64,000 nucleotides of DNA from Siphonodentalium dalli (lineage: Eukaryota > Mollusca > Scaphopoda > Gadilida > Siphonodentaliidae). Location: NCBI GenBank assembly GCA_032622095.1, contig CP136069.1, positions 31,128,342 through 31,192,341 of the forward strand. Reading direction: 5' to 3'. The position numbers and the translations under genes are program-made. The notes below the pieces were generated by a model. That model saw only the letters and a program-made list of their open reading frames with translations. It searched no databases and was not told where the DNA came from. Positions 6,116 to 59,352 of this stretch are shown one piece after another; position 1 is the first letter of the stretch; each line of letters starts with the position of its first letter.

Positions 6116-6123
6116 GCATACAT

Positions 6124-6651: not shown

Positions 6652-6653
6652 TA

Positions 6654-7599: not shown

Positions 7600-8800
7600 T
7601 ATGTTGGTGATGATGATGATTCCAATCAAACATTCGTGGTTTCTACCGGAGAACTCTGTTCAATGATGGTTATAATCCTTCCTTGGATGTCTGAACCAAA
7701 TTTATCCCTTTGCCTTAAGGCCTTTTCACACTGCATTTACAGTGCGATACGCATTCGTCGAATTAAAACACACTGGAGGCAATGGATGCTTGCGCATGGC
7801 AGGCAGTTAACAAAATTAGCAGAGACGCTGCTTGAGGATTAACCCTTTACCCAACAAACCGGCCAAAAATGGCCAAATAAAGCTGCAACAGCCTAAATTA
7901 TCTTGGGTCTGTCTCAATAAAACCATACAAATATGGATATCATTGGAACCGGCTCATTGACCACATTGTGATGGTTACAGTTATGCCCTGTGCCAATGCA
8001 TTCTCTTATATATGCGAGTCGACCATAGGTCGCCTCGCATATATAAGAGAATGCATTGGCCTAAAAAAAATCTTTTTTTTAACACTTTTTACCATTTTTT
8101 CTTACATTCTTTAACAATTTTATAATTTTTAATGTGTTAAGCCAATGCATTCTCTTATATATGCGAGGCAACCTATGGTCGACTCGCATATATAAGAGAA
8201 TGCATTGGCACAGGGCCATTCTGTTGGGTAAAGGGTTAAATCTGTCCTAATCTGGTGGTGCATGCAAGATTTTGTCCTCGGTTCAGCTAATTCAGACTTT
8301 TCCAATGACTCTTTAGAATGAAGACTCTGGAAGCACAGGCAGTTTTCAGTCTGGTCAGTTTTGGGCTGGTCATAGTGCATCACTTCACCATGCAGTCATT
8401 TTTAACAATAATATGCGAATAACAAAAACTTGGAGTTAAACAGAAACATGAGTAACCGCAGAAAATTCCAGACGCATTGGTGCATGGCAAACCCCCAAAC
8501 TGGCAGTCAAGAATATTGTGATGAGCCTGTCAAGAACTCCTATTTATATTAAGTTAATTAATTTAAATTGAAGCATGATTTCATAATGCCAATCTTGGAA
8601 GTTGACATAAACCTGTGAGCCCACATTTTATTTCTGTCAAGATGTCAAAAGGTTTTGCAGAAAAATATAGGATTATGCTATATTTGGGGGCCACATGCCC
8701 GAAAAAGTGTACACTGCTCGAAATATAATCACACATGGTCCAAAATAATAGTTATGAAGTTCAAATTGGGGTTTTGTCCAGCGATTGTGTTTTTATGTGC
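7600..8800. repeat. Dispersed repeat, copy 2, interrupted by a MITE
   Basis: Same family as 1430-2030, with the 7839-8239 MITE inserted. Confidence 0.65.
7839..8239. mobile_element. piggyBac-like MITE at TTAA
   Basis: Inverted ends TTAACCCTTTACCCAACA and TGTTGGGTAAAGGGTTAA, with TTAA as target duplication. Inside are two opposed foldback hairpins starting CCCTGTGCCAATGCATTCTC. TTAA target plus CCCTTT termini are piggyBac features; no transposase is present. It is inserted in a dispersed repeat that also occurs, uninterrupted, around 1.43-2.03 kb. Confidence 0.8.
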
Positions 8801-22067: not shown

Positions 22068-22173
22068 TCAGCTATCAGCTGCCCTCTCCTTGGCCAGCTT
22101 CTTTTCGAAGGCAACTTTCTTCTGCCTGACCCGGTCCATTCTTTGAGCCTTCGACATCTTGGCACGATTCCAT
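22068..22173 (-). CDS. RPL5: RPL5 terminal coding exon E
   Basis: 106 nt after acceptor ATTATATTTTCAG. The first A completes Arg, then [34 protein letters not shown] and stop TGA at 22068-22070. The basic, alanine-rich tail is typical of RPL5. The 3' UTR is very short: the AATAAA signal lies 17 nt past the stop. Confidence 0.96.
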
Positions 22174-38100: not shown

Positions 38101-41100
38101 AGTATTTGTAACCCGCAAAATAAAATCCAGTTGTAAGTCGGGATTTTTTTTACCCTGTGCCAATGCATTCTCTTATATATGCGAGTCGACCATAGGTCGT
38201 CTCGCATATATAAGAGAATGCATTGGCCTAACAATTTATCTTTTTTTTTTTAAATAAATGTTTCTTACAATTTTTAGGACATAAAATAAAAAACATCCAT
38301 TACCCACACATATATAGAAGCATATAGAAGAGTGTCGTCTGCGGCTCTGTATGAGTGAAATTATGAAATTGTTAAATACAAGAAATTAATTAAAATTGTA
38401 AAAAATTGTTAGGCCAATGCATTCTCTTATATATGCGAGGCGACCTATGGTCGACTCACATATATAAGAGAATGCATTGGCACAGGGTAAAAAAATCCCG
38501 ACTTAGGACTGGATTTGATATGGCGGGTCACATAGTATGCAAAGGGCCTTTGTGTACATGGGACTGTTGATGTTAGGATCAGTTTTTTATTTAAAATACT
38601 ACCAAGGCTTCATTATCCACTATCCATTGCATGTTATATCATTTGTGCCACGAATATTTTCCATTAACTGAATGTTTAAATTGGGATTTTTTTTTTTTAA
38701 ATTCAATCTACCATACTTTTTTACCTTGTGTTAGCTACCCGAAACTATTTTTTTTTTTTAGCATTCAAGTCACATCAGATAGGAGCGAAAGACAATGCGG
38801 AGTATAATCAAGGTTTCTCATCTGAACTATGCTATCATCATCTGCGACTCGTTTGTTTAAATGAAAATTCAATTCTAATCAAGGACTTTTTTTTGGAGAT
38901 TGATGAACATTAGACCAGACTCCAGTGGAAGAAAAATATACACCCTTCAGCTGCTTTCACGGACCTGCGGCTGACGCATGCGGCTATCAGGTAATGCGCA
39001 ATGTTTCAAACCATACATATATCACAGGGGTTGCGACCGACAGTTCAACACATCAGATTTCAAAAAGTGATACACCAATGAGATACATGTACAGCTATGC
39101 TCTAATTAATCGACCCCTTTAACGAGGTTATGGGCTGGTAATGACCGCTGTCGTACCGCCATCACACCACGGTCAAGTGGTAGCACCGCGTCCATTTGCA
39201 GTGACCCGCGGTAATCTACGACACTGTACAACTTTGCGAAGAAGTTTTTTGTGATTAGCAATAAATGGAATGATGAATTGAACTTTGAAATCCAAGATGG
39301 CTACTGGCAGCCATATTATTTGGCCAATGACTGGTTCCCATCTATGTCAATATCAACAGCCATGACAAATTTCATAATGATCCGACCAAAGGTACGACCT
39401 GTAGCCCGTGCTAATGGAAATTGTTGACGGACGTCACACACACAACAGATACCAAGCCATGGCATTAGCTCAAACTTTCCAAGTAAAGTTGAGCTAATAA
39501 TAAATTCAACAAACGACTTAACGTTTAACTTACCATCCGAACATTTCCTATGGGATAAATACTCATAATAGTATAAAAAGGAATAACAGAGCTAATTACC
39601 TGTGTGGTATATCAATGCCACCATCAGCTGCTCCCTTCATTGCACCGAATACACGATTACCGGTCGTTGTCCTCACCAGTCCGGTATCGAGGAATGCTCG
39701 GAATGTACCCGGTTTCCCTTCCTGATCCTCCTCGAAGTATGAGTCTCCATCGGGGTTCTCATTTCCCTTGTATATTGTGTCCAGTTTGCATTTTCTCAAC
39801 AGCTGCAAGAAGAAAAGAGTTATCGATCTATTTCTGCCTAAAAAGGAAATGTGGCGCTAAACATGAAATAAATAAATTAACCATGCTTAATTTAAATTTT
39901 GCAGATGTACCTGGATGTACTAGTAAAATTTAAAGAATTTGCATCAGATGCGGTGTCGAGTTGTGGTAGCTACGTGAAACATGAGCTTGGATTCAAAATT
40001 CATTAATTCGTAACTGGCTATTAAGCACAACACTAAAATACTAAATATTCTGATGCGAACAGACTTCCAAAGTGATCGTGCTATCGCAATCAAAATTCAC
40101 GAAAATTTACTAATAAAGTAGGCGGACAAGCTTGTTTTTCGAACTCCAGTAAGAAATTGTGGATCAAATCTCTTATACCGAATACAACAAAATGAGTTGA
40201 TATTTACTGTTGACAAATAAATAGATGAAATAGTTATAAAAATATGTCTCATTACGACTTCCAAAATAAAGTGACTGGAAATTATTAACTGTATTTAATG
40301 TTCTGCACCTAATTAAGAAAAGTTTTTATTTTTAGGTTATGAAAGCTCTTTATTTTTAGTTTTAGGAAAGATTGTTATATTGTACTGGTAGCTGATTATT
40401 TGTTAATCTAACACAAGCCTTGAAATAGTGCGTGTCATTTGCAGAATGAGGTCCCCAGAGGGTGAATTTAGTGATGCTACTACACAGCAGGCAAGCATTA
40501 CCAATTCACCCGCTGGGGACCTCATCATCTGGGTAGTATCTCTGGTCTCAAAGAACTGTTTTTAGTTACTTTTTCCCTTCTGTTCAGTTTCTATATCCTC
40601 CAATTTACAGAGAATAAAATGCATAATCGAGGTGACTAATGGGTGAACATCACCAATTTCATCTGGGGAGCCTCAATGTGATCCTAAGTCTCCCATAGCA
40701 GAACATTTCATCTGGGGAGCCTCAATGTGATCCTAAGTCTCCCATAGCAGACCGAGGTTTCATCTGGGGAGCCTCAATGTGATCCTAAGTCTCCCATAGC
40801 AGACCGAGGTTTCATCTGGGGAGCCTCAATGTGATCCTAAGTCTCCCATAGCAGACCGAGGTTTCATCTGGGGAGCCTCAATGTGATCCTAAGTCTCCCA
40901 TAGCAGACCGAGGTCCCCAGAGTGTGAATTTAGTGATGCTATCCCACATAGCAGGCTAGCATCACCAAATTAAACCTCGGGACCTTATTCTGCATAGCCT
41001 CATCTGCTATGGGCACACACATTGGGAACCTCGATTATGCAATATATCATATTCTGATTTGGGGATATAGAGAAACAAACTAAAAAAGTAAAATAGAAAT

Positions 41101-41487: not shown

Positions 41488-41560
41488 GAGCCTCAGGTTT
41501 GATGACTTTCAGCAGATCATGGATCTGAAGGCATTTGGGTATGTCAATCATCATCAGCAC
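41488..41560 (-). ncRNA. C/D-box snoRNA-like unit 1 (subtype II)
   Basis: Nearest copy to RPL5 exon A (80 nt upstream of its acceptor). Box C ATGATGA, box D CTGA. The closing stem is weakened (GTGCT facing GGCTC). So close to the splice site, processing would be difficult, so this copy may be a relic. Confidence 0.4.
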
Positions 41561-42692
41561 GAAAATGCAGAAAGTATGGAAGCAGGCAATGCATTGTTTT
41601 CCATACAGGACTTCCTTCAACTGACATCGATCATCGTTTCGGCCAAATTATTGACAATTTTCCACAAAATATTCTACACGAATCAGAAGTTGCCATTTGC
41701 GCGAATCAATTTTGATTCTTGACATGTTTCACACGAATCTTTACGAGAGTCGATTCAGTGATTCGCGTGGAAAATTAAGACCTGGGAAGGCCAAGTAGTG
41801 TAAACTAATATACCAGTTGGTTAGTCCCCAATTGCATTTGAAAAAGATCATTCAGGCACCAGAATTTTTAAAGCAGCAATGCAAACAAAGATCGAAGCTT
41901 CACTTTGGCAGATACCTGACCAAACCATAAAAAACCATATAAAAAAAAATTCCATCATCTATATACATGTTGCACATCTCCAATATGTGGGTAACAATAC
42001 TCTGTGAGGTTTCAAATATCTACGATCAAAACTATAGGAGTTGATTACACCATGAAGGTACCCTCATACAGAAAATTAAAAAAAATGTTTTTCAAAGTCA
42101 AAAGGCACACAACTCTGGGAAAAATCATTGGATCAAACTCAAATTCGAACTTGACCTGTATTTTGATATGAACGACCCACAAAAAAACAGAATTTTCAAT
42201 TGAACAGTCCAAACTTGAGTTATCATCCGGAAACCAAAGAAAAAAGAAGAAAATTGAATATTCCCAGTCGAAAAAAAGTCCACAACTCTAGGAAAAATCA
42301 TTGGATCAAACTCAAATTCGAACTCAACCTGTATCTTGATATGGCTGATCCACATCAAAACGGTATTTGCAATTAAAGGATCCAAACTTGAGATATCATC
42401 CGAAAAAATGAGAATTTAAGAGCACCTGTGTTCTTGGTTGAGACACCTACATACCAAGTTTCAATCAAATCGGATGACCATTAGTGGAGTTACAACTCTG
42501 GACGGACGGGGCCGATTACAATAGTCCCCCAAAAATAAATTTTTCGGGGGACAATAAAGGTCAGTCTTCGAAATAGTCCATGGACAATAGTAACATTTTT
42601 CCTAATTTCGAGAGTTGCCTAGTGTTTGTTTTAAATCGACTTAAGTTATTGATACAAGTTATTTGTATGTTAATTTGTTGCCATTGAATTTT

Positions 42693-42764
42693 GAGCCTCA
42701 GGTTTGATGACTCTCAGCAGTTCATGGATCTGAGGCATTTGGGAATATCAGTCATCATCGGCCC
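42693..42764 (-). ncRNA. C/D-box snoRNA-like unit 2 (subtype I)
   Basis: Minus strand: stem GGGCC/GGCTC (one G-U), box C ATGATGA, first region CTGATATTCCCAAATGCC before D'-like TCAGA, then GCTGAGAGTCATCAAAC before box D CTGA. About 72 nt, a normal size for C/D snoRNA. Target unknown. Confidence 0.5.
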
Positions 42765-45338
42765 AAAAAAAGAAAGATTTATCAACGGCTTGACAACAAA
42801 TGATAATAAGTCTCATTTAAAATAAAGGTTTGTCCTCAAAATTAGCCACGGCAATAAGCAAGGTCATGGGAAACGCTGTGGCAACACGTGGCATTTTAAC
42901 ATGCCACAGCATTAAATTTGCCATAGGACATTTTTTCTTGTAATTAGAGTTCTCTATTTGAAGTTATTGTCTGGAAACCAGTGTTTATGAGAAAACAAAA
43001 TACCCATATAAACTCTTGTCGGGCAAATAACATTGGACAAAAAGTCACCTCCCACCATTCCGAGCTTGACCTTTATTTTGAGCCAGTTGAGTGACAAATA
43101 GAGTTATGTGGGGATCACGCATCTCTAACTGAAGATATTCCAAAACAAGACAGTCAAAGACTGTGGGGTCGCTCACCAGACTGCAAAGACTGATAAGACT
43201 GGGACTTTGGAGACCACAACAGTCAGAACTTTTCATAATCACTTTAAAAGAAGTAGATCTAAACAGGATATGTGGCTAGAGAGGCTTCATGAATGTAGAT
43301 CAGTGAATATCAAATTACCAAATCTACAAAATCTACCTTGAAATTACCAAATCTAACTTGAAACTACCAACTGTACACAATTGATCACCCCCTCCTCCAG
43401 CTCAAGAAGTCCCCTCTCGCCCAGGGCCCAGACTTCCAAGTCTTAGGTTGAAATTTCACAACCGACATCTCAAACTTTCTCAATTGTTGGAAATTTTCAA
43501 TCTCACAAGCGCTTTATATAAAACCATTGAGACATGATTAAAGCCCAATTATCCATGGACCCAAAAACACTATATGTATGTCAGATTAATCAGTCAGGTA
43601 GTTCCAAGGTAGACGTTTTAATGAATTTTGTATTTTAATGATTTTTTAGACACAAAAGTCTTAAGTCCCCATAGTCCCGTCATTTCTTAACGGGTTGACC
43701 TCATGTTAACAGATCTGAATCTCAGTCACTAAAGGATCCTCCATACTATATGGTCCAACCTCTCTTGAGAAGACATAAGTATTACTATAGAGACATACAG
43801 TTATGTCCCTGGTCCCGCCCTATTTAACCTGGTGACCCCATCTGCATAAATTTGAATCCCAGACACCAAAGAACCCTTCATACTAAATATCAGTAAAATA
43901 AACCTGACGGTCCGTGTAAAGGAAGCATATTAAGAGGAAAACTGTCCTTTGCTTGGCCCCTATTTGACCAGGATGACCCCATTTGAACAAATCTGAACTA
44001 GTCACAAAAGGACCCTTCATACCAAATATGAACCAATTCAACCTGATGGTACACGAGAAGTCGTTTTTAAGAATTACTATGGAGGGCAAGAGTTATGGCC
44101 CTGGCTTCACAACCATTTGACAGAGTGACCTCATTTGAACAAATCTGAATGCGAGTCACCTAGGGAACATTCACACCAAATATGAACCCATTCAGTCTCA
44201 TGACCTAGAGAAGATGTTCAAAGAATTGTTGGCAGATGGATGACGGACAGACAGATGAACAGATAACAGATGAGAAGTGATGACTATAGCTTCTTCTCTT
44301 AAGAGCTTCAAATTTACAATTTCATTGAACAAATCTGTCAGTCACCACCCCCCCCCCCCCCAACAATGTGGGGACATCCCTGTGAGAATATGACATACAA
44401 CATTTATTTGACTACATTAGCTTAACAAAATTCCCATGACCTTGAGAGCAAGTGCATTCTGAGAATTATATTCCATTCACCAAGCCATCAGCTACCAGTA
44501 TCTGAGGTGTTGACATAGATAATTAGGTTTTAACGACTGCACACAGCTTTTTGATACTCCTACAGCTGTGATCAAAACAAGGATTTTGATGGGGTGAACA
44601 AGGAAGAGATAACATGGTATGATACAGTGTGGTGTGGGTGGGTGAGGGTGGGGTTGGGTAGCTGTGATATGTCTAAAAAAATCAAAGGTCAAAATGCAAA
44701 AATGTTAAAAAAAATTTTAGAGTTATGTCCCTGGCTCTGTCCCTATTTTACCCAGTGACCCCATTTGAACAAATCTGAACCCCAGTCACCCAAGGTCTCT
44801 CTGTACCAAATATAAGCTAAATCGGCCAAATATTTTTTTTAGAAGAAGTCATTCTAAGAATTACTATGAGTTATGGCCCTGGTTTCTCAACTAATTGACC
44901 GGGTGACCTCATTTGAACACCAGTCACCCAAGGACCCTCCATACCAAATATTAGCTAAATCGGCCCAATGGTTCTGAACAAGAAGTCGTAAGAATTGCTA
45001 TGGAGGAATACAGTTATGGCCCTGGCTTCTCAACTATTTGACCCAGTGACCTCATTTGAACAAATCTGAATGAGAGTCACCTAGGGAACATCCACACCAA
45101 ATATGAACCAATTCGGTCTTCCGGTTTCAGAGGAGAAGATGTTCAAAGAATTGTTGACGGACGGACGACGGACGAAGAGTGATGACTATAGCTCCACCGG
45201 AGACTTCGTCTCAGGTGAGCTAATAAAAACCAAACAAAATCTTGAATACTTTATCTAAATGTACACCTTAAGTGTTATAACACCCATGAAGTTTTTGATA
45301 CAATTTATTTATATGTTAATTTGTTGCCATTGAATTTT

Positions 45339-45410
45339 GAGCCTCAGGTTTGATGACTCTCAGCAGATCATGGATCTGAGGCATTTGGGAATATCAGTCA
45401 TCATCGGCCA
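45339..45410 (-). ncRNA. C/D-box snoRNA-like unit 3 (subtype I)
   Basis: Box C ATGATGA, D'-like TCAGA, box D CTGA; closing bases GGCC/GGCT. Region before D reads CTGAGAGTCATCAAAC. Confidence 0.5.
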
Positions 45411-45882
45411 AAAAAAAAAGCAGATAGATTTATCAACAGCTTGATAACAGGCGATAATAAGTCATTTAAAATAAAAGGTTAGTCCTCAAAATTACCCACT
45501 GCAATAAGCAAGGTCATGGGGAAACGGCGTGGCATCATCTGGAATCTTAACATGCCACAGCATTAAATTTTCCATGGGACATTTTTTTCTAATTTTGAGT
45601 AATCCATTTGAAGCTATCGCCTGGAATCCCGTGTTTATGCAGAAACCAAATACCCATGTAAACTCTTCAGGCAAATATCAATGGACAAAATGTCAACTCT
45701 CAACCTTTATTTTGAGCCAGTTGAGCGACAAATAGAGTTCGGTGGTGATCACGCATCTCTAACTGGATATCATTCCAAAATAATATCAAAACAAAACGCT
45801 CAAAAACATGAAATATGGGTTGTAAAACCACGGAAGTTATTGAGACAATTTATTTATATTTTAATTTGTTGCCAATAAATTT

Positions 45883-45954
45883 GAGCCTCAGGTTGGATGA
45901 TTTTCAGCAGTTCATGGATCTGAGGCATTTGGGAATATCAGTCATCATCGGCCC
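45883..45954 (-). ncRNA. C/D-box snoRNA-like unit 4 (subtype I)
   Basis: Same boxes and stem as unit 2. The region before D has changed to CTGAAAATCATCCAAC, so the putative guide differs from its neighbours. Confidence 0.48.
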
Positions 45955-46552
45955 AAAAAAAAGCAGAAAGACTTATGATAAGGCCGTTTCTTTGCTAATT
46001 GGATTCTCCTGTTCAATTATAAAAGAAATACATTGGAATGGTCTATTATATATCTGGAGGGGTTTTCAGGAAAAATAAGCAGACGACTGATAATATTTAA
46101 GTACAGAAGGAGTCCTATTTATTGGAAAATTAGTTTATACCCACGGTACCTACCTACCTACCTACCTACATGTACCTAGTCCAAAGAAAATTAAATGTCT
46201 GGTTTGGGTTGAAAGCCGAGAAAACAAATAGGGTTGATAGGTGGGCTTGAAATTTTTTAAATATGGCCATGATTTTAAGTCTCATTTAAAATAAAGGTCA
46301 GCCTTCAAAATTGGCCACGAAAATAAGCAAATGTCGTGGGTAAACGCTGCGGCAACATGTGGAATCAAACATGCCACAGCATTCAATTTGCTGCAAGACA
46401 TTTTTATAATTTTGAGAGCTGCCTAGTGTTATAAAACCACGGAAGTTATAGCAACATTTTTCCTAATTTCGAGAGTTGCCTAGTGTTTGTTTTAAATCGA
46501 CTTAAGTTATTGATACAATTTATTTATATGTTAATTTGTTGCCATTGATTTT

Positions 46553-46624
46553 GAGCCTCAGGTTTGATGACTCTCAGCAGTTCATGGATCTGAGGCATTT
46601 GGGAATATCAGTCATCATCAGCCC
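46553..46624 (-). ncRNA. C/D-box snoRNA-like unit 5 (subtype I)
   Basis: Box C ATGATGA and box D CTGA intact; stem GGGCT/GGCTC retained through wobble pairs. Confidence 0.5.
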
Positions 46625-47101
46625 AAAAAAAAAAGCAGAAAGATTTATCAACAGCTTGATAACAGGCGATAATAAGTCATTTAAAATAAAGGTTAGTCCT
46701 CAAAATTAGCCCAGGCAATAAGCAAGGTCATGGGAAACGCCGTGGCAACATGTGGAATCTTAACATGCCACAGCATTAAATTTTCCATGGGACATTTTTT
46801 CTAATTTTGAGTAGTCTATATGAAGCGATCGCCTGGAAACAATGAGAATACAAAATACCCATGTAAACTCTCGTCGGGCAAATATCATTGGACAAAACAT
46901 CACCTCTCACCATTCCGAGCTTGACATTTATTTTGAGCCAGTTGAGTGACAAATCGAGTTTGGTGGTGATCACACACATCTAACTGGATTTTATTTCAAA
47001 AATAAAATCAAAACTAAAAGTTCAAATACTTGAAATATGGGTTGTAAAACCTCTAAAGTTATTGATAAGTTATTCATGTTAATTCGTTGCCATTGAATTT
47101 T

Positions 47102-47173
47102 GAGCCTCAGGTTTGATGACTTTCAGCAGTTCATGGATCTGAGGCATTTGGGAATATCAGTCATCATCGGCTA
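47102..47173 (-). ncRNA. C/D-box snoRNA-like unit 6 (subtype I)
   Basis: Boxes intact; four-base stem AGCC/GGCT. Region before D is CTGAAAGTCATCAAAC. Confidence 0.48.
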
Positions 47174-47610
47174 CAAATAAATTAGTTTATACATACCTAC
47201 CTACATTGTACCTACATGTACCTATATTTTTAAATATGGAAACATTGAAAATAATTCTCATTTAAAATAAAGGTCAGCCTTCGAAATTGGCCACGAAAAT
47301 AAGTAAATGTCGTGGGTAAACGCTGCGGCAACGTGTGGAATCCAACATGCCACACAGCATTCAATTTGCTGTGAGACATTTTCATAATTTCGAGAGCTTG
47401 ACATTTATTTTGAGGCAGTTGAGTGACAAATAGAGTTCGGTGGTGATCACACATCTCTAACTGAAGATATCGGTCCAAAATTAAATCAAAACAAAAAGCT
47501 CAAACTTTTAATATCGGTTGCCAAATAGTGGTCTAAATGTACCGGTGTTACAACACCTGTGAAGTTCTTCATACAATTTATTTATATGTTAATTTGTTGC
47601 CATTGATTTT

Positions 47611-47682
47611 GAGCCTCAGGTTTGATTGCTCTCAGCATTTCATGGATCTGAGGCATTTGGGAATATCAGTCATCATCGGCCA
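47611..47682 (-). ncRNA. C/D-box snoRNA-like unit 7 (subtype I)
   Basis: Box C ATGATGA and box D CTGA intact. The region before D has changed to GCTGAGAGCAATCAAAC. Confidence 0.48.
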
Positions 47683-47999
47683 AAAAAAAGCAGAAAGATT
47701 TATTGATAAGACCCTTTCTTTGCTAATTGGATTCTTCTGTAGTTGTAAAAGAATACATTGGAATGGTCTATTATACATCTGGAGGGGATTTCAGGAATAA
47801 TAAGCAGACAACTGATAATATAAGTACAGAAGGAGTCCTATTTATTGGGAGCGAAATGTTTAAATAACTTCAACAAACATTTGGAGTTTATTATCTGAAC
47901 ATTTCACCAAAGGAACTACTCGTCAATGAGTATTTAGGAAAGAAAGGGTCATTCATGCATATAGTGATTACATGAAATTCAAAAGTTACATCTCTCCAA

Positions 48000-48130
48000 C
48001 CTACCTACATGTACCTACTGGAAACAGTAGCTCCATCACACCCACGTACCTACCTACTGGAAACAATACCTCACTCCCACCTACCTACTGGAAACAGTAC
48101 CTCCCTTCCACCAACCTACCTACTGGAAAC
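48000..48130. repeat. CCTACCTACTGGAAACAGTA minisatellite
   Basis: About five imperfect 25-30 bp units; a related patch lies at 51320-51440. Confidence 0.75.
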
Positions 48131-48353
48131 ATATTTCTAAATATGACCTTGATATCAAGTTTCATTTAAAATAAAGGTCAGTTTTTGAAATTGGCCACGA
48201 AAATAAGCAAATGTCGTGGGTAAACGCTGTGGCAACGTGTGGAATCCAACATGCCACAGCATTCAATTTGCAGTGAGACATATTTTCATAATTTTGAGAG
48301 CTGCCTAGTTATTGATATAACTTATTCAAAGTTAATTTGTTGCCATTGAATCT

Positions 48354-48426
48354 GAGTCTCAGGTTTGATGACTTTCAGCAGATCATGGATCTGAAGGCAT
48401 TTGGGTATGTCAATCATCATCGGCCC
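48354..48426 (-). ncRNA. C/D-box snoRNA-like unit 8 (subtype II)
   Basis: Subtype II: after box C ATGATGA comes TTGACATACCCAAATGCC. Box D CTGA is intact but the stem side reads GACTC, weakening the closing helix. Confidence 0.42.
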
Positions 48427-48775
48427 TAAAAAGCAGAGATTTATCAATGGCTTAACAAAATACCCACAACTCTTGTCAGGCAAATATCATTGGACAATAT
48501 CACAATATTAGACAATATTGGCAAATATCACCTCTCCCACCATTCCGAGCTCAACATTTATTTTGAGCCGTTGAGTGACAAATAAGAGTTAGGTGGTGAT
48601 CACACATCTACTGGAGATAACATTCCTAAATAATATCAAAAGAAAACGCTAAAAAAAACTTGAAATATGGGTTGTAATTGTAAAATACTGGTCTAAGTGT
48701 ACATGTACCATAGTGTTGTAACCCCTAAAGTTATTGATAATTTATTTATATGTTAACTTGTTGCCATTGAATTTA

Positions 48776-48853
48776 GAGCCTCAGGTTGGATGATTTTCAG
48801 CAGATCAAGGATCTGAGGCATGTCAGATCCATAGGATTATTAGTCATCAGCTC
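48776..48853 (-). ncRNA. C/D-box snoRNA-like unit 9 (subtype III)
   Basis: Subtype III, longer module. It has lost one ATC triplet, leaving CTGATGA as box C. Between C and D' it carries CTAATAATCCTATGGAT directly before CTGA, a good C-guide-D' layout. Stem GAGCT/GGCTC kept. Confidence 0.45.
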
Positions 48854-50270
48854 AAAAAAAAAGCAGAAAGATTTATCAACAGCTTGATAACAGGTGATAA
48901 TAAGTCTCGTTTAAAATAAAGGTTAGTCCTCAAAATTACCCACGGCAATAAGCAAGGTCATGGGGAAACGGCGTGGCAACATGTGGAATCTTAACATGCC
49001 ACAGCATTAAATTTTCCATGGGACATTTTTTTCTAATTTCGAGTAATCTATATGAAGCGATCGCCATAAAACAAGTGTTTTATGAGAATACAAAATACCC
49101 ATGTAAACTCTCGTTGGGCAAATATCATTGGACAAAACATCACCTTTCACCATTCCGAGCTTGACCTTTATTTTGAGCCAGTTGAGTGACAAATCGAGTT
49201 AGGTGGTGATCACGCATCTCTAACTGGATATCATACCAAATAAAAGGCCGCTCGGCCAGTGTCCCCCGAACCGGTGGCTTCATTTGGAGCGTTGTTAGCG
49301 CATAAAAATTGTCATGGCGGAACACAAAATCGAATTTCATTCAGTACACATTTACTAAAGTTATCATCCGGAAACCTCAAATTGGCAAAAATTATAAGTC
49401 AAAAAGGGACATAACTCTGGTGAAAATTGGCGGGCAGAACCAGAATTCGAACTTGACCTGTGTTTTGCTGGGAGAAAGACACATACCAAATTTGGTTTAA
49501 ATCTGATTAACTCTACTAAAGTTATCATCCGGACACCAACTTTTGGGGTTTTATATGTCGGGTCGGCGGACAAAAAAGGGGCCATAACTCTCGCAAAAAT
49601 TATCGGATTAAACCGAAATTCGAACTTGAGCTGTATTTTGATATAACAAATCCACAAAAGAACGGGTTTTGCATATAAACAATCAAAAATCAAGTTATCA
49701 TCCGGAAACCAAAAAACAGAAGAAAAACTTAATTTTCTACGTCGAAAAAGGGACATCACTCTGCCAAAAATGGTCGGGCAGAACCCAAGTTCGAACTTGA
49801 CCTGTGTTTTGCTGGGAGAAAGTAATATACCAAATTTGGTTTGAATCCGATTAACTCTACTAAAGTTATCATCCGGAAACAAACTTTCAGGGGGTTTCCC
49901 CCCCCCCCCCCAAGTCAAAAAAGGGCCACAACTCCCGCAAAAACGGGCGGAGAAAACCCATATTCGAACTTGACCTTTATTTTGGCCTGATAAACACACC
50001 TATGAAATTTGCTTTTGATCTAATAACCGAAACTAAAGTTATCATCCGGACGGACACCGGCTATTTTAATAGTCCCCCGAATTTTTTTTTTCTAAAACAT
50101 GAAATATGGGTTGTAAAATGTCTGAAGTTATTGAAACAATTCAGAAAGTGACTGATATTGTGTATATTTATATTTCATGTTTATGTCAAGCGCTAAGGGC
50201 CCGCTTATTGGGGATAAGCGCTATACAAATATTATTATTATTATATGTTAATTTGTTGCCATTGAATTAT

Positions 50271-50342
50271 GAGCCTCAGGTTTGATTAGTTTCAGCAGAT
50301 CATGGATCTGAGGCATTTGGGAATATCGGTCATCATCGGCTC
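50271..50342 (-). ncRNA. C/D-box snoRNA-like unit 10 (subtype I)
   Basis: Perfect five-base stem GAGCC/GGCTC, box C ATGATGA, box D CTGA; region before D reads AAACTAATCAAAC. Confidence 0.5.
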
Positions 50343-50941
50343 CAAAAAGCAGAAAGATTTATTGATAAGGCCATTTCATTCCCAATTGGATTCTCCTGTC
50401 GAGTTATAAAAGAATATATTGGATGATTGGAATGGTCTATTACACATTTGGAGGGGATTTCAGGAATAATAAGCAGACAACTGATAATATAAGTACAGAA
50501 GGAGTCCTATTTATTGAAGGGAAATGTTTAGACAATAAGTTCAACAGACAGAGTTTATTATCTGAACATTTCACCAAAGGAACTACTCGTCAATGAGTAT
50601 TTAGGAATGAAAGGGTCAATCATGCATACAGTGATTACATGAAATTCGAAAGTTACCTCCATCCCACCCACCCACCCAACCCACCTACCTACTGGAAACA
50701 TAATTTTAAATATAACCTTGATATTAAGTCTCATTTAAAATAAAGGTCAGCCTTTGAAATTGGCCACGAAAATAAGTAAATGTCGTGGGTAAACGCTGCG
50801 GCAACATGTGGAATCCAACATGCCACAGCATTCAATTTGCTGCGAGACATTTTCAAAATTTTGAGAGCTGCCTAGTGTTATAAAACAACGGAAGTTATTG
50901 ATGCAATTTATTTATATGTTAATTTGTTGCCATTGAATTTT

Positions 50942-51013
50942 GAGCCTCAGGTTTGATTAGTTTCAGCAGATCATGGATCTGAGGCATTTGGGAATATCAG
51001 TCATCATCGGCTC
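50942..51013 (-). ncRNA. C/D-box snoRNA-like unit 11 (subtype I)
   Basis: Perfect stem GAGCC/GGCTC with both boxes intact. Like unit 10 it has the AAACTAATCAAAC region before D. Confidence 0.5.
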
Positions 51014-51663
51014 AAAAAAGCAGATAGATTTATTGACAAGACCCTTTCTTTGCTAATTGGATTCTCCTGTAGAGTTATAAAAGAATACATTGGAATGGTC
51101 TATTATACATCTGGAGGGGATTTCAGGAATAATAAGCAGACAACTGATAATATAAGTACAGAAGGAGTCCTATTTATTGGAGGGAAATGTTTAAATAACT
51201 TCAACAAACATTTGGAGTTTATTATCTGAACATTTCACCAAAGGAACTACTCGTCAATGAGTATTTAGGAAAGAAAGAGTCATTCATGCATATAGTGATT
51301 ACATGAAATTCAAAAGTTAACTCCCTCCCACCTACCTTCCTACTGGAAACAGTACCTGGAAAGTTGAAACGGTACCTCCATTCCACCCATCTACCTACTG
51401 GAAACAGTACCTCCCTTCCACCCATCTACCTACTGGAAACATATTTCTAAATATGACCTTGATATCAAGTTTCATTTAAAATAAAGGTCAGCTTTCGAAA
51501 TTAGCCACGAAAATAAGCTAATGTCGTGGGTAAATGCTATGGCAACGTGTGGAATCCAACATACCACTGCATTCAATTTGCAGCGAGACATATTTTCACA
51601 ATTTCGAGAGCTGCCTAGTTATTGATAGAACTCATTCCAAGTTAATTTGTTGCCATTGAATCT

Positions 51664-51736
51664 GAGCCTCAGGTTTGATGACTTTCAGCAGATCATGGAT
51701 CTGAAGGCATTTGGGTATGTCAATCATCATCGGCCC
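51664..51736 (-). ncRNA. C/D-box snoRNA-like unit 12 (subtype II)
   Basis: Subtype II with stem GGGCC/GGCTC, box C ATGATGA, box D CTGA. Nearly identical to units 8 and 16. Confidence 0.48.
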
Positions 51737-52283
51737 TAAAAAGCAGAGATTTATCAATGGCTTAACAAATGATAATAAGTCTCATTTAGAATAAAGGTTA
51801 ATCCTCAAAATTAGCCAAGCAATAAGTAAGGTCATGGGAAACGCAGTCTCAACATGGAATCTAAACATGCCACAGCATTAAATTTTCCATGGAACATTTT
51901 TTCTAATTTCAAGAAATCAATTTGAAGCTATGGTCTGTAAATCAGTGTTTATGCAGAAAACAAAATACTCAACTCTTGTCAGGCAAATATCATTGGACAA
52001 CATCACAATATTGGACAATATTGGCAAATATCACCTCTCCCACCATTCCGAGCTTGACATTTATTTTGAGCCAGTTGAGTGACAAATAGAGTTCGGTGGT
52101 GATCACACATCTCTACTGGAGATAACATTCCAAAATAATATCAAAAGAAAACGCTAAAAAACTTGAAATATGGGTTGTAATTGTAAAATACTGGTCTAAT
52201 AGTGGTCTAAGTGAACCATAGTGTTATAACCACTGAAGTTATTGATAATTTATTTATATGTTAATTTGTTGCCATTGAATTTA

Positions 52284-52364
52284 GAGCCTCAGGTTGGATG
52301 ATTTTCAGCAGATCAAGGATCTGAGGCATGTCAGATCCATAGGATTATTAGTCATCATCAGCTC
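52284..52364 (-). ncRNA. C/D-box snoRNA-like unit 13 (subtype III)
   Basis: Subtype III: stem GAGCT/GGCTC, box C ATGATGA, CTAATAATCCTATGGAT before internal CTGA, box D CTGA at the end. Confidence 0.5.
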
Positions 52365-52787
52365 AAAAAAAAAGCAGAAAGATTTATCAACAGCTTGATA
52401 ACAGGTGATAATAAGTCTCGTTTAAAATAAAGGTTAGTCCTCAAAATTACCCACGGCAATAAGCAAGGTCATGGGAAACGCCGTGGCAACATTTGGAATC
52501 TTAACATGCCACAGCATTAAATTTTCCATGGGACATTTTTCTAATTTCAAGTAATTGACATTTATTTTGAGCCAGTTGAGCGACAAATAGAGTTAGGTGG
52601 TGATCTGACACACATCTCTACTGGAGATAACATTCCAAAATAATATCAAAAGAAAATGCTAAAAACTTGAAATATGGGTTGTAATTGTAAAATACTGGTC
52701 TAATAGTGGTCTAAGTGTACCATAGTGTTATAACCCCTGAAGTTATTGATAATTTAATTATATGTTAATTTGTTGCCATTAAATTTA

Positions 52788-52868
52788 GAGCCTCAGGTTG
52801 GATGATTTTCAGCAGATCAAGGATCTGAGGCATGTCAGATCCATAGGATTATTAGTCATCATCAGCTC
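52788..52868 (-). ncRNA. C/D-box snoRNA-like unit 14 (subtype III)
   Basis: Same sequence as unit 13 in stem, boxes and guide-like region; 504 bp away, indicating recent tandem duplication. Confidence 0.5.
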
Positions 52869-53698
52869 AAAAAAAAACCCAATAAGATTTATCAACTGCC
52901 AACAATTGAGAAGGCCCTTTCTTTACTAAATGGATTCTCCTGTTCAGTTATAAAATACATTGGAATGGTCTATTATACATCTGGAGGGGTTTTCATGAGA
53001 AATAAGCAGACGACTGATATTACAAGTACAGAAAGAAGCCTCGTCAAAAAGCGTCCTTTTTCGGCCAAAAAATAGGGATGACCTGGATTTTTGACATGTA
53101 AAACACGTCTATATACTATTTATATTAAGCTGCAATAATTTTAGATGTAATTTAACAACAAAAATTTACTTCTATTAAAATACATGTCTATTTGTGGTTG
53201 CATATGAATCCCAATATCAGGAATAAATCTGTTATTCTGAGAATCGCGCGGCCAGGTGAAATGCAATGTCAACATGATGGCACGGAAGTTGCTGAATAGT
53301 ATCAATGTTGTCATGAGTCACAGGAGATAGCATTTTTGTGTCCCTTCTTTGAGATTAGATCGCTCCCAACTTTCTGGTGCATATTTTTTACATTTCTGGG
53401 TATATTGTCAAGATATAAAGCTAGCATTCTGTCAGAAATTTCAGCAAGTGGATACAAAGGTATTGAGAATATGAACTTTTATCTTGTTTTTAGAATGGTA
53501 CATTATAGATGGATTTGGGGAAAAAAAAAAAAAAATCCCACCTGCCACTGGATTTTTTGGCTCTAGAAATCTAACATGCCAAGCAGCATTAAATCTGCTG
53601 CGAGACATTTTTCCTAATTTAGTAGGAGCCAAGTGTAATAAACTACTGAAGTTATTGATACAAGTTATTTGTATGTTAATTCGTTGCCATTGAATTTT

Positions 53699-53770
53699 GA
53701 GCCTCAGGTTTGATTAGTCTCAGCAGTTCATGGATCTGAGGCATTTGGGAATATCAGTCATCATCGGCTC
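53699..53770 (-). ncRNA. C/D-box snoRNA-like unit 15 (subtype I)
   Basis: Stem GAGCC/GGCTC, both boxes intact, region before D GAGACTAATCAAAC. Confidence 0.5.
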
Positions 53771-54313
53771 AAAAAAGCAGAAAGATTTATTGATAAGGCC
53801 ATTTCTTTCCTAATTGGAATCTCCTGTCGAGTTATAAAAGAATATATTGGATGATTGGAATGGTCTATTATACATTTGGAGGGGATTTCAGGAATACTAA
53901 GCAGACAACTGATAATATAAGTACAGAAGGAGTCCTATTTATTGGAGGGAAATGTTTAGATAATAAGTTCAACAAACAGTTTATTATCTGAACATTTCAC
54001 CAAAGGAACTACTCGTCAACGAGTATTTAGGAATGAAAGGGTCAATCATGCATACAGTGATTACATGAAATTCAAAAGTTACCTCCCTCACTCCCATCCA
54101 CCAACCTACCAGAGCTGTTAAGTTTCACGGATTGTCCGTGAGACTCCCGGATTGCCACGGCAATAACCAAATGTCGTGGGTAAACGCTATGGCAACGTGT
54201 GAAATCCAACATACCACTGCATTCAATTTGCAGTGAGACATATTTTCATAATTTCGAGAGCTGCCTAGTTATTGATATAACTTATTCCAAGTTAATTTGT
54301 TGCCATTGAATCC

Positions 54314-54386
54314 GAGCCTCAGGTTTGATGACTTTCAGCAGATCATGGATCTGAAGGCATTTGGGTATGTCAATCATCATCGGCCC
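54314..54386 (-). ncRNA. C/D-box snoRNA-like unit 16 (subtype II)
   Basis: Subtype II, same as unit 12 in boxes and guide-like regions; the outermost stem base pair has changed (GAGCC preceded by CC on plus). Confidence 0.48.
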
Positions 54387-54910
54387 TAAAAAAAGCAGAA
54401 AGATTTATCAACGGCTTAATGAATGATAACAAGTCTCGTTTAAAATAAAGGTTAATCCTCAAAATTAGCCACGCGATAAACAAGCGAGGTCATGGGAAAT
54501 GCAGTCGCAACATGGAATCTTAACATGCCACAGCATTAAATTTTCCATGGGACATTTGTTCTAATTTCAAGTAATCAATTTGAAGCTATGGTCTGTAAAT
54601 CAGTGTTTATGCAGAAAACAAATACCCAAAACTCTTGTCAGGCAAATATCATTGGACAAAACATCACCCCTCCCACCATTCCAAGCTTGACATTTATTTT
54701 GAGCCAGTTGAGTGACAAATAGAGTTAGGTGGTGATCACACATCTCTACTGGAGATAACATTCCAAAATAATATCAAAAGAAAACGCTAAAAAACTTAAA
54801 ATATGGATTGTAAAATACTGGTCTATTAGTGGTCTAAGTGAGCCATAGTGTTATAACCTCTGAAGTTATTGATAATATATTTATATGTTAATTTGTTGCC
54901 ATTAAATTTA

Positions 54911-54991
54911 GAGCCTCAGGTTGGATGTTTTTCAGCAGATCAAGGATCTGAGGCATGTCAGATCCATAGGATTATTAGTCATCATCAGCTC
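54911..54991 (-). ncRNA. C/D-box snoRNA-like unit 17 (subtype III)
   Basis: Subtype III with stem GAGCT/GGCTC and intact boxes; one base differs before D (AAAAACATCCAAC). Confidence 0.48.
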
Positions 54992-55305
54992 AAAAAAAAA
55001 CCCAATAAGATTTATCAACTGCCAACAATTGAGAAGGCCCTTTCTTTACTAAATGGATTCTCCTGTTCAGTTATAAAATACATTGGAATGGTCTATTATT
55101 ACACATCTGGAGGGGTTGTCGGGAGAAATAAGCAGACGACTGATAATATACATGCAAGTACAGAAAGAAGCCTCGTCAGAAAGTCCTTTTTCGGCCAAAA
55201 AATTGGGCCGACCTGGATTTTTGACACGCAACTCACGTCTCTATTGTTAATATATACTATGTTTATATTAAGCAGCAAATAATTTTCAAAAAAGATTTAC
55301 TTCTA

Positions 55306-55694
55306 TTAACCCTTTACCCAACAGAAGGGCCCTGTGCCAATGCATTCTCTTATATATGCGAGTCGACCATAGGTCGCCTCGCATATATAAGAGAATGCAT
55401 TGGCTTAACACATTAAAAATTATAAAATTGTTAAAGAATGTAAGAAAAAATGGTAAAACGTATTAAAAAAAGATTTTTTTAGGCCAATGCATTCTCTTAT
55501 ATATGCGAGGCGACCTATGGTCGACTCGCATATATAAGAGAATGCATTGGCACAGGGCATAACTGTAACCATCACAATGTGGTCAATGAGTCGGTTCCAA
55601 TGATATCCATATTTGTATGGTTTTATTGAGACAGACCCAAGATAATTTAGGCTGTTGCAGCTTTATTTGGCCGGTTTGTTGGGTAAAGGGTTAA
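55306..55694. mobile_element. piggyBac-like MITE at TTAA, with empty sites in paralogues
   Basis: Same family, 389 bp. It interrupts the sequence TTACTTCTATTAAAATACATG of the array. The same sequence is uninterrupted near 53165 and 58325, where a single TTAA is present. This filled/empty comparison shows the TTAA duplication directly. Confidence 0.88.
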
Positions 55695-56229
55695 AATACA
55701 TGTCTATTTGTGGTTGCATATGAATCCCAAACTCGGGAATAAATCTGTTATTCTGAGAATCGCATGGCCAGGTGAAATGCAATGTCAAAATGATGGCACG
55801 GAAGTTGCCAAATAGTATCAATGTTGTCATGTACAGTATTGCGCAACATTGTGTCATGGTGCCACGAGCGATAGAAATTCCATGTACCTTCTTTGAGATC
55901 CAAACTTTCTGGTGCATATTTTTTACCTTTCTGCTGCTTTCTGGGTATATTGTCAGTTATGAAGCTAGTTTTCTGTCAGAAATTTCGGCAACTGGATACA
56001 AAGGTATCGAGAATACAGAATATGGTGCATTATAGATGGATTTAAAAAACAAAAAATTCCTACCTGCCACTGGATTTTTTGGCTCTAGAAATCCAACATG
56101 CCATGCAGCATTAAATTTGCTGTGAGACAATTTTCCCAATTTAGGGGGGGGGGGGGGGGGGGGGGGGGGTACTAGTGTAATAAACTACTGAAGTTATTGA
56201 TACAAGTTATTTGTATGTTAATTTGTTTT

Positions 56230-56304
56230 GAGCCTCAGGTTTGGTGACTTGTCAGCAGATCACAGATATGAAGACATTTGGTTTAATTCAATCATCATCG
56301 GCCC
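56230..56304 (-). ncRNA. C/D-box snoRNA-like unit 18 (subtype IV)
   Basis: Divergent subtype: box C ATGATGA and box D CTGA remain, but the middle has changed (AATTAAACCAAATGTCTTC, then GACAAGTCACCAAAC before D). The boxes and stem are kept while the middle changed. Confidence 0.42.
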
Positions 56305-57059
56305 AAAAAAGCAGAAATATTTATAAATGACAATTTTAACAAATGATAATAAAAGGCTCCTCGGCCAGAGTGTCCACTATGTTCGTATGAGAAATCCATG
56401 TACCAAATTTGAAAACAAACACAACTTGAGCTAAAACTATCACACGGAAACCAAAATACTCGTCAAGGTTTTAAAATGAGGATAAAGACAGAAGAAAGAT
56501 TTATCATATGACTGTACGGTATTTCCAATTTAATGATAGTTTGAAACTATCAACGATATCCCGGTATATCGTGCACTGATATCGGTATATCGTACAAAGG
56601 ACTGCTTGTGAAAAAACATAGTTATTCGATGCTAAATTTTTATTATTCATGTATAATCAGGTAACTTCTGCATTGACAATGGCAACCACGAATATGTTGT
56701 ATGATAAATATGTTCTATTTGAAAACAAGACTTGGACTCATGCGTTGTATGTATATATACACCGATAATTTACAAACAAGAGCTGTTCATCACATAAAAG
56801 ACCTATCCACCCACATCAGGTACTACAGGTGAGAACTGTCCAGTGCCGTATTTGGTAGATATGCTTCGATTGACACATCACAACATCTTCATTGTGTTCA
56901 AACAGAGATTAAAGTGTTTGTGTGAGAATGTTTTATTGGTTATCAGTCGAAAATACATTACCTGTTGCAATATTATTTTTAAAAAAAAAAAAACCCTGCC
57001 TGGAAAATTTCCCCCATGTTATCACTGATGTTATTGGAAACATATGTTTTTTTTTTGCC

Positions 57060-57450
57060 TTAACCCTTTACCCAACAGAAGGGCCCTGTGCCAATGCATT
57101 CTCTTATATATGCGAGTCGACCATAGGTCGCCTCGCATATATAAGAGAATGCATTGGCTTAACGCATTAAAAATTATAAAATTGTTAAAGAATGTAAGAA
57201 AAAATGGTAAAAAAATATTTTTTTTTAGGCCAATGCATTCTCTTATATATGCGAGGCGACCTATGGTCGACTCGCATATATAAGAGAATGCATTGGCACA
57301 GGGCATAACTGTAACTATCACAATGTGGTCAAGGAACCGGTTCCAATGATATCCATATTTGTATGGTTCTATTGAGACAGACCGAAGATATTTTAGGCTG
57401 TTGAAGCTTTATTTGGCCGGTTTTGGCCGGTTTGTTGGGTAAAGGGTTAA
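57060..57450. mobile_element. piggyBac-like MITE at TTAA
   Basis: Same family and orientation as the copy at 55306. Right flank CAAATGATAAGTCTCATTT is array sequence; left flank is unrelated AT-rich DNA, so the insertion coincides with or followed a rearrangement of the array. Confidence 0.8.
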
Positions 57451-57935
57451 CAAATGATAAGTCTCATTTAAAATAAAGGTTAGTCCTCAAAATTAGCCAC
57501 GCAATAAATAAGCGAGGTCATGGGAAATGCAGACTCAACATGGAATTTTAACATGCCACAGCATTAAATTTTCCATGGGACATTTTTTTCTAATTTCAAG
57601 AAATCAATTTGAAGCTATGGTCTATAAATCGGTGTTTATGCAGAAAATAAAATACCCACAACTGTCATTGGACAAAACATCACCTCTCCCACTATTCCGA
57701 GCTTGACATTTATTGAGCCATTAAAGTGACAATAGAGTTAGGTGGTGATCACACGTCTACTGGAGATAACATTCCAAAATAATATCAAAAGAAAACGCTA
57801 AAAAAAACTTGAAAGATGGGTTGTAATTGTAAAATACTGGTCTAATAGTAGTAGTGGTCTAAGTGCACCATAGTGTTATAACCCCTGAAGTTATTGATAA
57901 TTTATTTATATGTTAATTTGTTGCCATTAAATTTA

Positions 57936-58016
57936 GAGCCTCAGGTTGGATGATTTTCAGCAGATCAAGGATCTGAGGCATGTCAGATCCATAGGATTAT
58001 TAGTCATCATCGACTC
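57936..58016 (-). ncRNA. C/D-box snoRNA-like unit 19 (subtype III)
   Basis: Subtype III with box C ATGATGA and box D CTGA; inner stem reads GTCG on one side, weakening the closing helix. Confidence 0.45.
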
Positions 58017-58897
58017 AAAAAAAAAGCAATAAGATTTATCAACTGCCAACAATTGAGAAGGCCCTTTCTTTACTAAATGGATTCTCCTGTTCAGTTATAA
58101 AATACATTGGAATGGTCTATTATACATCTGGAGGGGTTTTCAGGAGAAATAAGCAGATGACTGATAATATACATGCAAGTACAGAAAGAACACTCGTCAG
58201 AAAGAGTCCTTTTTTCGGCCAAAAAATTGGGCCGACCTGGATTTTTGACACGTAAATCACGTCTCTACGGCTAAATAAATATCTACTATATTTATATGAA
58301 GCAGCAAATAATTTTCAAAAAAGATTTACTTTTATTAAAATACATGTCTATTTGTGGTTGCATATGAATCCCAAACTCTGGAATAAATCTGTTATTCTGA
58401 GAATCGCGCGGCCAGGTGAAATGCAATGTCAACATGATGGCACGGAAGTTGCCGAATAGTATCAATGTCGTCATGTGCAGTATTGCGCAACATTGTGTCG
58501 CGAGTCACGGGAGATAGAAATTCCATGTACCTTCTTGGAGATCCCAACTTTCTGGTGCATATTTTTTTTTTTACCTTTCTGGGTATATTGTCAGATATAA
58601 AGCTAGTTTTCTGTCAGAAATTTCGGCAACTGGATACAAAGATATTGAGAATACCAACTTTTATCTTGTATTTAGAATATGGTGCATTATAGATAAACTA
58701 AAAAAAAAAAAAAAAAAAATTCCTACCTGCCCAGACCTGCCACTGGATTTTTTGGCTCTAGAAATCCAACATGCCATGTAGCATTAAATTTGCTGCGAGA
58801 CAATTTTCCCAATTTGGGGGGGGGGGGGGGGGGGGGGTACTAGTGTAATAAACTACTGAAGTTATTGATACAAGTTATTTGTATGTTAATTTGTTTT

Positions 58898-58972
58898 GAG
58901 CCTCAGGTTTGGTGACTTGTCAGCAGATCACAGATATGAAGACATTTGGTTTAATTCAATCATCATCGGCCC
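58898..58972 (-). ncRNA. C/D-box snoRNA-like unit 20 (subtype IV)
   Basis: Same as unit 18. Together units 17-18 and 19-20 are a recent duplication of a 1.8-kb or longer block. Confidence 0.42.
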
Positions 58973-59252
58973 AAAAAAGCAGAAATATTTATAAATGACA
59001 ATTTTAACAAATGATAATGAAAGGCTCCTCGGCCAGAGTGTCCACTATGTTCGTATGAGAAATCCATGTACCAAATTTGAAAACAAACATAACTTGAGCT
59101 AAAACTATCACACGGAAACCACAATACTCGTCAAGGTTTTAAAATGAGGATAAAGACAGAAGAAAGATTTATCATAGGACTGTACGGTATTTCCAATTTA
59201 AAATATCGCGATAGTTTGAAACTATCAACGATATCCCGGTATATCGTGCACT

Positions 59253-59352
59253 NNNNNNNNNNNNNNNNNNNNNNNNNNNNNNNNNNNNNNNNNNNNNNNN
59301 NNNNNNNNNNNNNNNNNNNNNNNNNNNNNNNNNNNNNNNNNNNNNNNNNNNN
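59253..59352. other. Assembly gap, 100 N
   Basis: Exactly 100 N. The left side is the end of a duplicated array block; the right side is the start of the copy of an RPL5 intron segment. A join of unrelated contigs here is plausible. Confidence 0.98.

Follow-up and report, generated by a model that had tools for sequence, protein, structure and literature searches.

A tandem array of box C/D snoRNA-like modules in an RPL5 intron of Siphonodentalium dalli

The stretch of DNA analysed here, called the window, comprises 64,000 nucleotides (nt) of the scaphopod mollusc Siphonodentalium dalli (C9:31128342-31192341), whose genome is represented by 2.2 Gb in 9 contigs. It carries part of the gene for the ribosomal protein RPL5 and, in the same sense, a tandem array of 20 modules that resemble box C/D small nucleolar RNAs (snoRNAs). 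The next 70 kb past the window were also included, and positions in them are given in window-extended coordinates.

The RPL5 gene and its module-bearing intron

In a genome search, the L5e Pfam domain has five exon matches, which occur only at the RPL5 locus; two are within the window and three past it. Five RPL5 exons lie inside the window, all on the minus strand. Codon numbers follow human RPL5. The main features of the locus are as follows.

22068..22175, minus strand, last RPL5 exon, approximately codons 265-297
23686..23778, minus strand, RPL5 exon, approximately codons 235-265
33655..33829, minus strand, RPL5 exon, approximately codons 176-234
39600..39802, minus strand, RPL5 exon, approximately codons 106-175
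41273..41407, minus strand, RPL5 exon, codons 63-105, downstream exon of the array intron, 3' splice site TTATTTCAG
41488..58973, minus strand, 20 box C/D snoRNA-like modules in a tandem array, in the sense of RPL5, at intervals of 422-2646 bp, upstream end cut by the assembly gap
59253..59352, no strand, 100-N assembly gap, the contig to its right restarting at sequence equivalent to 24571
96126-96010 (window-extended), minus strand, RPL5 exon, codons 25-62, upstream exon of the array intron, second contig
at 108569 (window-extended), RPL5 exon, codons 2-24, second contig

The gap cuts the array of the window, and beyond it lies a near-identical second block with the RPL5 exons for codons 63-234, 20 modules and the exon for codons 25-62. 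On this second contig, the array intron falls between codons 62 and 63 and extends from 96009 to 78408 (17,602 bp), with the downstream exon starting at 78407 and with GT/AG splice sites (CAG/gtagga and TTATTTCAG/). There is no N from 59353 to 134000 (window-extended), so the complete array intron is ungapped. The whole array of the second contig, of about 20 modules, sits within one RPL5 intron and in the sense of its host; splicing itself is predicted from the sites. A sequence-only reading of the window had proposed a single-intron location provided that an upstream RPL5 exon lay beyond the 64 kb, and the exon for codons 25-62 was indeed found there, on the same contig as a complete array and with no N between the two.

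With a strict box scan (RTGATGA followed by CTGA), 19 minus-strand modules are detected in the window. For an nhmmer profile, 38 copies were selected by their boxes; this profile recovers exactly 20 modules in the window, the additional one being that at 48776-48857, and another 20 in the following 40 kb. The modules of the window are listed below, with types that were assigned by eye from the D'-side sequence in alignments.

41488..41560, minus strand, module 1, type 2, nearest the exon, weak stem
42693..42765, minus strand, module 2, type 1, profile
45339..45411, minus strand, module 3, type 1, profile
45883..45955, minus strand, module 4, type 1, profile
46553..46625, minus strand, module 5, type 1, profile
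47102..47174, minus strand, module 6, type 1, profile
47611..47683, minus strand, module 7, type 1, profile
48354..48427, minus strand, module 8, type 2, one change breaks the stem
48776..48857, minus strand, module 9, type 3, profile; missed by the strict box scan
50271..50343, minus strand, module 10, type 1, profile
50942..51014, minus strand, module 11, type 1, profile
51664..51737, minus strand, module 12, type 2, profile
52284..52365, minus strand, module 13, type 3, profile; longer D' region
52788..52869, minus strand, module 14, type 3, profile
53699..53771, minus strand, module 15, type 1, profile
54314..54387, minus strand, module 16, type 2, profile
54911..54992, minus strand, module 17, type 3, profile
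56230..56305, minus strand, module 18, type 4, D'-side complementary to own 28S (13 Watson-Crick pairs and 1 G-U)
57936..58017, minus strand, module 19, type 3, profile
58898..58973, minus strand, module 20, type 4, profile

Box C (TGATGA), a C'-like box (TGCTGA) and box D (CTGA) are each present in 40/40 modules. In 18/20 modules of the window and 18/20 beyond (36/40), the ends are closed by a stem of 4 bp or more, for the most part GAGCC/GGCTC and its G-U variants. The D' box is no more than CAGA-like in types 1-3 and is unclear in type 4. There are nine type 1, four type 2, five type 3 and two type 4 modules in the window; the second block has nine, four, four and one, respectively, plus two divergent outer modules that lie toward the upstream exon, past the shared set. 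When box C, box D and the stem are counted together, the minus strand gives 17 modules in the window part of the intron and 18 in the second block, and the plus strand gives 0, while 200 dinucleotide shuffles of the window part yield a mean of 0.085 and a maximum of 2 against the 17 observed. At the module edges, identity is 0.87 and 0.86 inside versus 0.53 and 0.44 outside, partly an effect of alignment anchoring. The sequence-only reading had described twenty modules in one orientation, sense to RPL5, with both boxes in every copy and usually a closing stem of 4-5 bp, all of which the profile and the box counts bear out; the length that it gave, about 72-81 nt, is close to the 73-82 nt measured from stem to stem in the aligned ranges. 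At the sequence level, boxes, stem and single intron agree in pointing to an array of C/D snoRNA-like genes, as had been proposed.

The distance from module 1 down to the 3' splice site is about 80 nt, which fits the spacing of efficient intronic C/D snoRNAs. Recursive splicing between modules was considered and set aside, since the intermodule sequence has 0 recursive-splice motifs in the window part of the intron and that of the second block has 1. Downstream of most modules, at about 5-55 nt and outside the closing stem, there is an AT-rich tail (CAATGGCAACAAATTAAC...) of about 45 nt with a mean identity of about 0.7-0.8. No shared stable hairpin was found among 9 folded of 34 such tails (6 of the 40 modules were left out). 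The conserved tail could be a processing signal, or merely the edge of the duplicated unit.

As far as the gap, the window block can be matched to the second one (57566-59252 to 90867-92576), and the first base past the gap matches 24571, the overlapping contig spans being 24571 to 59252 and 59353 to 92576. Long collinear stretches between the blocks are mostly 91-98% identical, and three shared exon ranges differ at 1/162, 0/207 and 1/177 positions. Because the contig ends meet at the gap on both sides, as those of overlapping haplotype contigs do, the two blocks are most likely two haplotypes with about 20 copies each rather than 40; a true segmental duplication is possible, but it needs a coincidence. 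The shared span holds 20 modules in the window version and 18 in the second, and copy number therefore differs between two versions of the locus. Unresolved haplotypes are thus the likely cause of the doubling of part of RPL5 in the assembly, and a gene model that crosses the gap would probably be wrong. As a separate observation, the beginning of the codon 176-234 exon occurs a second time, as a short copy at 33855-33896, inside a 65-bp tandem repeat (33789-34005) that crosses the exon edge, and this duplicate start recurs at 67467-67508 in the second block.

Distribution, divergence and candidate targets of the modules

Searched against the genome, a 129-nt consensus has 40 matches, of which 38 are at RPL5 and 2 elsewhere; the genome search reports best candidates only, and its counts are lower bounds. 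The two matches outside RPL5 (C9:31.047 and 31.064 Mb; 31046970 and 31064190) are on the other strand, about 81 and 64 kb ahead of the first position of the window. Their similarity extends from the outermost RPL5 module into part of its flank (96% over 157 and 80% over 480 columns), as in a local segmental duplicate.

Divergence was compared in two ways. Between the blocks, there are 18 putatively allelic pairs, collinear and chosen by order, all of which were counted. The differences amount to 4/483 in boxes plus stem, 21/884 at other module positions and 246/8321 in the flanks. Boxes and stem change less than flanks (Fisher p = 0.003); the same comparison gives p = 0.017 for the whole module and p = 0.40 for the other module positions. 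Among paralogous copies, 124 pairs could be aligned over 60 nt or more of flank on either side of the module; divergence is lower in the module than in the flanks in 69 of them and higher in 55. Where flank divergence is at least 0.15 (10 pairs only), modules are clearly less diverged (0.073 vs 0.173 for nine pairs and 0.028 vs 0.209 for one). Selection on the whole module, which was also considered, is unsupported by the 124 pairs overall. When 21 modules were aligned (all 20 in the window plus one past it), pairing is seen in 88.9% of stem cells, compared with at most 56.9% in slid versions, and it is kept mostly through G-U changes, with one two-sided change. These comparisons suggest a weak constraint on boxes and stem.

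The own ribosomal RNA (rRNA) searched for targets consisted of part of the 28S 3' region (L010) and about 220 nt of 18S. When 22 distinct module bodies were compared with the readable own 28S, only the two type 4 bodies exceeded the maximum of their 20 shuffles; the other 20 bodies, types 1-3 included, show no pairing above that of shuffles in the readable part of the own 28S. The type 4 modules (56230, 58898 and 92223) pair through their D'-side stretch with GGACATTTGGTTTA in 28S over 14 bp (13 Watson-Crick and 1 G-U). The pairing score of 13.5 is reached by 0/100 dinucleotide shuffles, the maximum of which is 11.0, and types 1-3 mismatch this site. The paired region presumably corresponds to that of human Gm4618, Um4620 and Gm4623. 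According to passages of PMC5597630, these three are human 28S methylation sites with guides. The type 4 pairing with 28S is thus regarded as a lead to a candidate target. A possible 18S target of the D-side guide, suggested by a human 18S segment, is not claimed.

Some observations concern the rRNA sequences themselves. The 28S matches on C5 (L010:8125-9242 and L013) start at model position 2391 of 3401, have repeats before both and look like truncated ribosomal DNA units. Parts of a foreign 28S are present on a contig filed under a bacterial metagenome-assembled genome (L007); this contig was compared once with the guides and also served as a query. A search for 5.8S gave only one weak, degenerate copy.

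Interpretation of the array and its alternatives

The anatomy of the modules, their location in a single intron, their near-absence elsewhere in the genome and the difference in copy number between near-identical versions of the locus make it quite probable that the array consists of locally amplified, intron-encoded box C/D snoRNA genes in a single RPL5 intron of 17.6 kb. As judged from sequence, the array is most probably functional at least in part. Further points in favour are the several copies of the recognised Z15 family and of a second C/D-like RNA in other RPL5 introns, the SNORD31 array with its similar amplification, and the type 4 pairing with 28S. The steps of release and dosage are less certain than this identity and location. 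A single ancestral C/D snoRNA, located some 80 nt before the 3' splice site, would have multiplied by unequal exchange of units of roughly 0.5-1 kb. The RPL5 pre-mRNA would then carry all copies, splicing would free one lariat, and C/D core proteins would protect each module. If the outer modules are protected, the inner 18 would be unreachable by end trimming, and therefore either endonuclease cuts between modules, which we prefer, or long snoRNA-ended remnants would be expected. Such cuts, followed by exonuclease trimming, could release many identical or near-identical guide snoRNAs. The likely outcome would be a higher dose of methylation guide in step with ribosomal protein synthesis, and some copies may drift to new guide sequences. 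A wider proposal, which we consider doubtful, is that RPL5 acts as a snoRNA factory. Its intron would be a precursor bearing many small nucleolar ribonucleoproteins (snoRNPs) that gives about 20 guides per splicing event, or else one giant RNA resembling a snoRNA-ended long non-coding RNA (sno-lncRNA); the dose would scale with ribosomal protein synthesis, and copies with fixed boxes would explore guides.

Several results weigh against the interpretation as amplified snoRNA genes. At gathering score, 0/20 window modules match any Rfam family, and the best sub-threshold snoRNA match is to the archaeal sR1, with 23.4 bits where 45 are needed. A plausible rRNA pairing is seen in only 3/40 modules, and the D'-like site puts no known modification, including human Gm4623, at +5 of the type 4 pairing. 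Stem covariation is not clearly above that of letter shuffles, 54/500 of which reach its score. The mismatch of paralogous pairs is equal overall in module and flank (0.080 vs 0.079), and no selection outside boxes and stem, guides included, is detected in allelic or paralogous pairs, in tests that recent duplications limit. The genome search also missed the two outermost of the 40 known RPL5 modules, so that its count is a lower bound. The sequence-only statement that boxes survive while other parts diverge is only partly borne out: it holds for the allelic comparison of boxes and stem with flanks, but not for the overall paralogous rates.

It is possible, although on balance unlikely, that most copies are dead, an explanation that overlaps with that of amplified snoRNA genes. 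One or a few modules, for instance the one nearest the 3' splice site, would make snoRNA, and the rest would be passive debris of tandem duplication. Only the module nearest the exon is close to that site, and the equal divergence of modules and flanks over the 124 paralogous pairs fits such debris. In addition, 2/20 window modules do not have a 4 bp stem, including the one nearest the exon, and the retention of boxes could also stem from recent duplication. Nevertheless, C, C'-like and D boxes are kept in 40/40 modules, even if the profile was built from box-picked copies, and the lower rate of change in allelic boxes and stem (p = 0.003) speaks against passive copies.

An improbable explanation, which also overlaps with that of amplified snoRNA genes, is that the intron is regulatory. 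In this case, snoRNPs would shield the spliced intron and leave sno-lncRNA-like RNAs of up to about 16 kb, or RPL5 splicing would be affected, and separate guides would not be the product. Passages of a review describe how introns with two snoRNAs can yield sno-lncRNAs, as snoRNPs bound at the ends stop exonucleases (PMC11028025). The count of recursive-splice motifs between modules (0 and 1) and the result that no rRNA target was found for types 1-3 are in line with such a role, but the target search covered only the readable part of the rRNA.

Collapsed or expanded repeats in the assembly are a very unlikely source of the array. A gap abuts the array of the window and the contigs overlap like unresolved haplotypes; however, each contig has 20 modules, the second spans the whole intron without N, and it is the doubling rather than the array that looks artefactual. 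Least probable of all is a mobile or interspersed repeat with chance C/D-like motifs, for which speak the two further copies before the window start; in a search that gives lower-bound counts and missed two known modules, 38/40 matches are at RPL5, and the other two share similar flanks with its outermost module. A genome-wide repeat without conserved boxes, which the sequence-only reading had named as the finding that would count against it, is not borne out within the limits of a best-candidate search: 38 of at least 40 matches are at RPL5, and boxes are present in 40/40 known modules.

Other C/D snoRNA arrays and comparison with known systems

The array is not the only set of C/D snoRNAs at RPL5. 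Two further introns within the window contain copies of snR60/Z15 (RF00309), all identified with Rfam.

38767..38850, minus strand, snR60/Z15, 1 of 3 in the intron after codon 175
36727..36810, minus strand, snR60/Z15, 2 of 3 in the intron after codon 175
35952..36035, minus strand, snR60/Z15, 3 of 3 in the intron after codon 175
32214..32297, minus strand, snR60/Z15, 1 of 2 in the intron after codon 234
29454..29537, minus strand, snR60/Z15, 2 of 2 in the intron after codon 234

These five copies pass the Rfam gathering score, and all 9 genome matches of the family fall within the two RPL5 blocks. Another C/D-like RNA, with an AATCTC/GAGATT outer stem, occurs five times in the intron that separates codons 24 and 25, which accounts for all 5 of its genome matches. 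SNORD31 (RF00089) has 34 genome matches: 19 in an array on C4, 7 elsewhere on C4, and 8 on C9, either ahead of the window or inside it.

C4:233557010-233572229, one strand, SNORD31 array of 19 tandem copies, 15.2 kb, spacing 0.3-2.2 kb

The C4 array, like that of RPL5, consists of tandem C/D copies on the same strand, but it belongs to a recognised Rfam family. A different C/D-like module is present near it at 233559786, and a similar one at 233575198. In a search for its host, 4 sequences (one of them trimmed) out of 311 open reading frames of at least 45 amino acids were compared with Pfam, and one with PDB sequences, with no match. From the RPL5 arrays and this independent one it follows that tandem C/D snoRNA amplification recurs in the genome, and the genome may amplify C/D snoRNAs in this way more generally. 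SNORD18 (RF00093) was not found, but the positive control of that search also failed.

On the plus strand of the window, positions 1426-7694 include a SNORD31 (2657-2729) and C/D-like modules at 1429, 4776, 6435 and 7610, those at 1429 and 7610 being near copies; possibly, this is another snoRNA host gene opposite to RPL5. In C9:31055786-31131070, there are eight SNORD31 matches on the plus strand, several of them about 14-18 kb apart. Together with the two modules of the outer RPL5 array type at 31046970 and 31064190, about 17 kb apart, these matches perhaps reflect a larger tandem duplication beside RPL5.

Animals usually have one snoRNA per intron, and the large eutherian arrays carry one copy in each repeated intron. 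Intronic snoRNA clusters exist beside the predominant one-per-intron rule, and an intron with two snoRNAs can give rise to a sno-lncRNA; the passages of the review that describe this contain no example of some 20 copies of the same snoRNA within a single intron of a protein-coding gene (PMC11028025). A 20-copy intron in a housekeeping gene would therefore need another release route, or else leave long remnants. According to the same passages, the eutherian SNORD113/114 and SNORD115/116 and the rat Bsr form likewise large local tandem C/D arrays with subfamilies and changes in copy number, which are set in repeated introns of non-coding host RNAs, with SNORD113/114 and SNORD115/116 at imprinted loci (PMC11028025). 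The RPL5 array is like SNORD115/116 in its many local copies on the same strand (20, at 422-2646 bp). It is unlike them in that a single intron, in a gene coding for a ribosomal protein, contains all copies, and no more than one recursive-splice motif is present between the modules.

Vertebrate RPL5 also hosts a C/D snoRNA, U21 (SNORD21), which in chicken is in intron 4, as given in passages of PMC2653536. U21 is present in one copy, and the array has no Rfam match at gathering score, so the likeness concerns the host gene rather than any demonstrated orthology. Several copies of one guide per host are described in the same source for chicken, although in different introns: U18 in introns 2, 5 and 6 of RPL4, and the U80 type (U80/Z15) in introns 4 and 5 of a gas5-like transcript (PMC2653536). 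It had been claimed from the sequence that no such array is known to be tied to a ribosomal protein gene, and none turned up in the literature searched, which is weak evidence in view of its partial and open-access-leaning coverage. The RNA class and its habit of local amplification are already known, while the host and the arrangement are unusual. The RPL5 array provides a test case for how snoRNA genes multiply and are excised, and it offers variation in copy number together with guide drift at a constitutive locus, outside the imprinted arrays of mammals.

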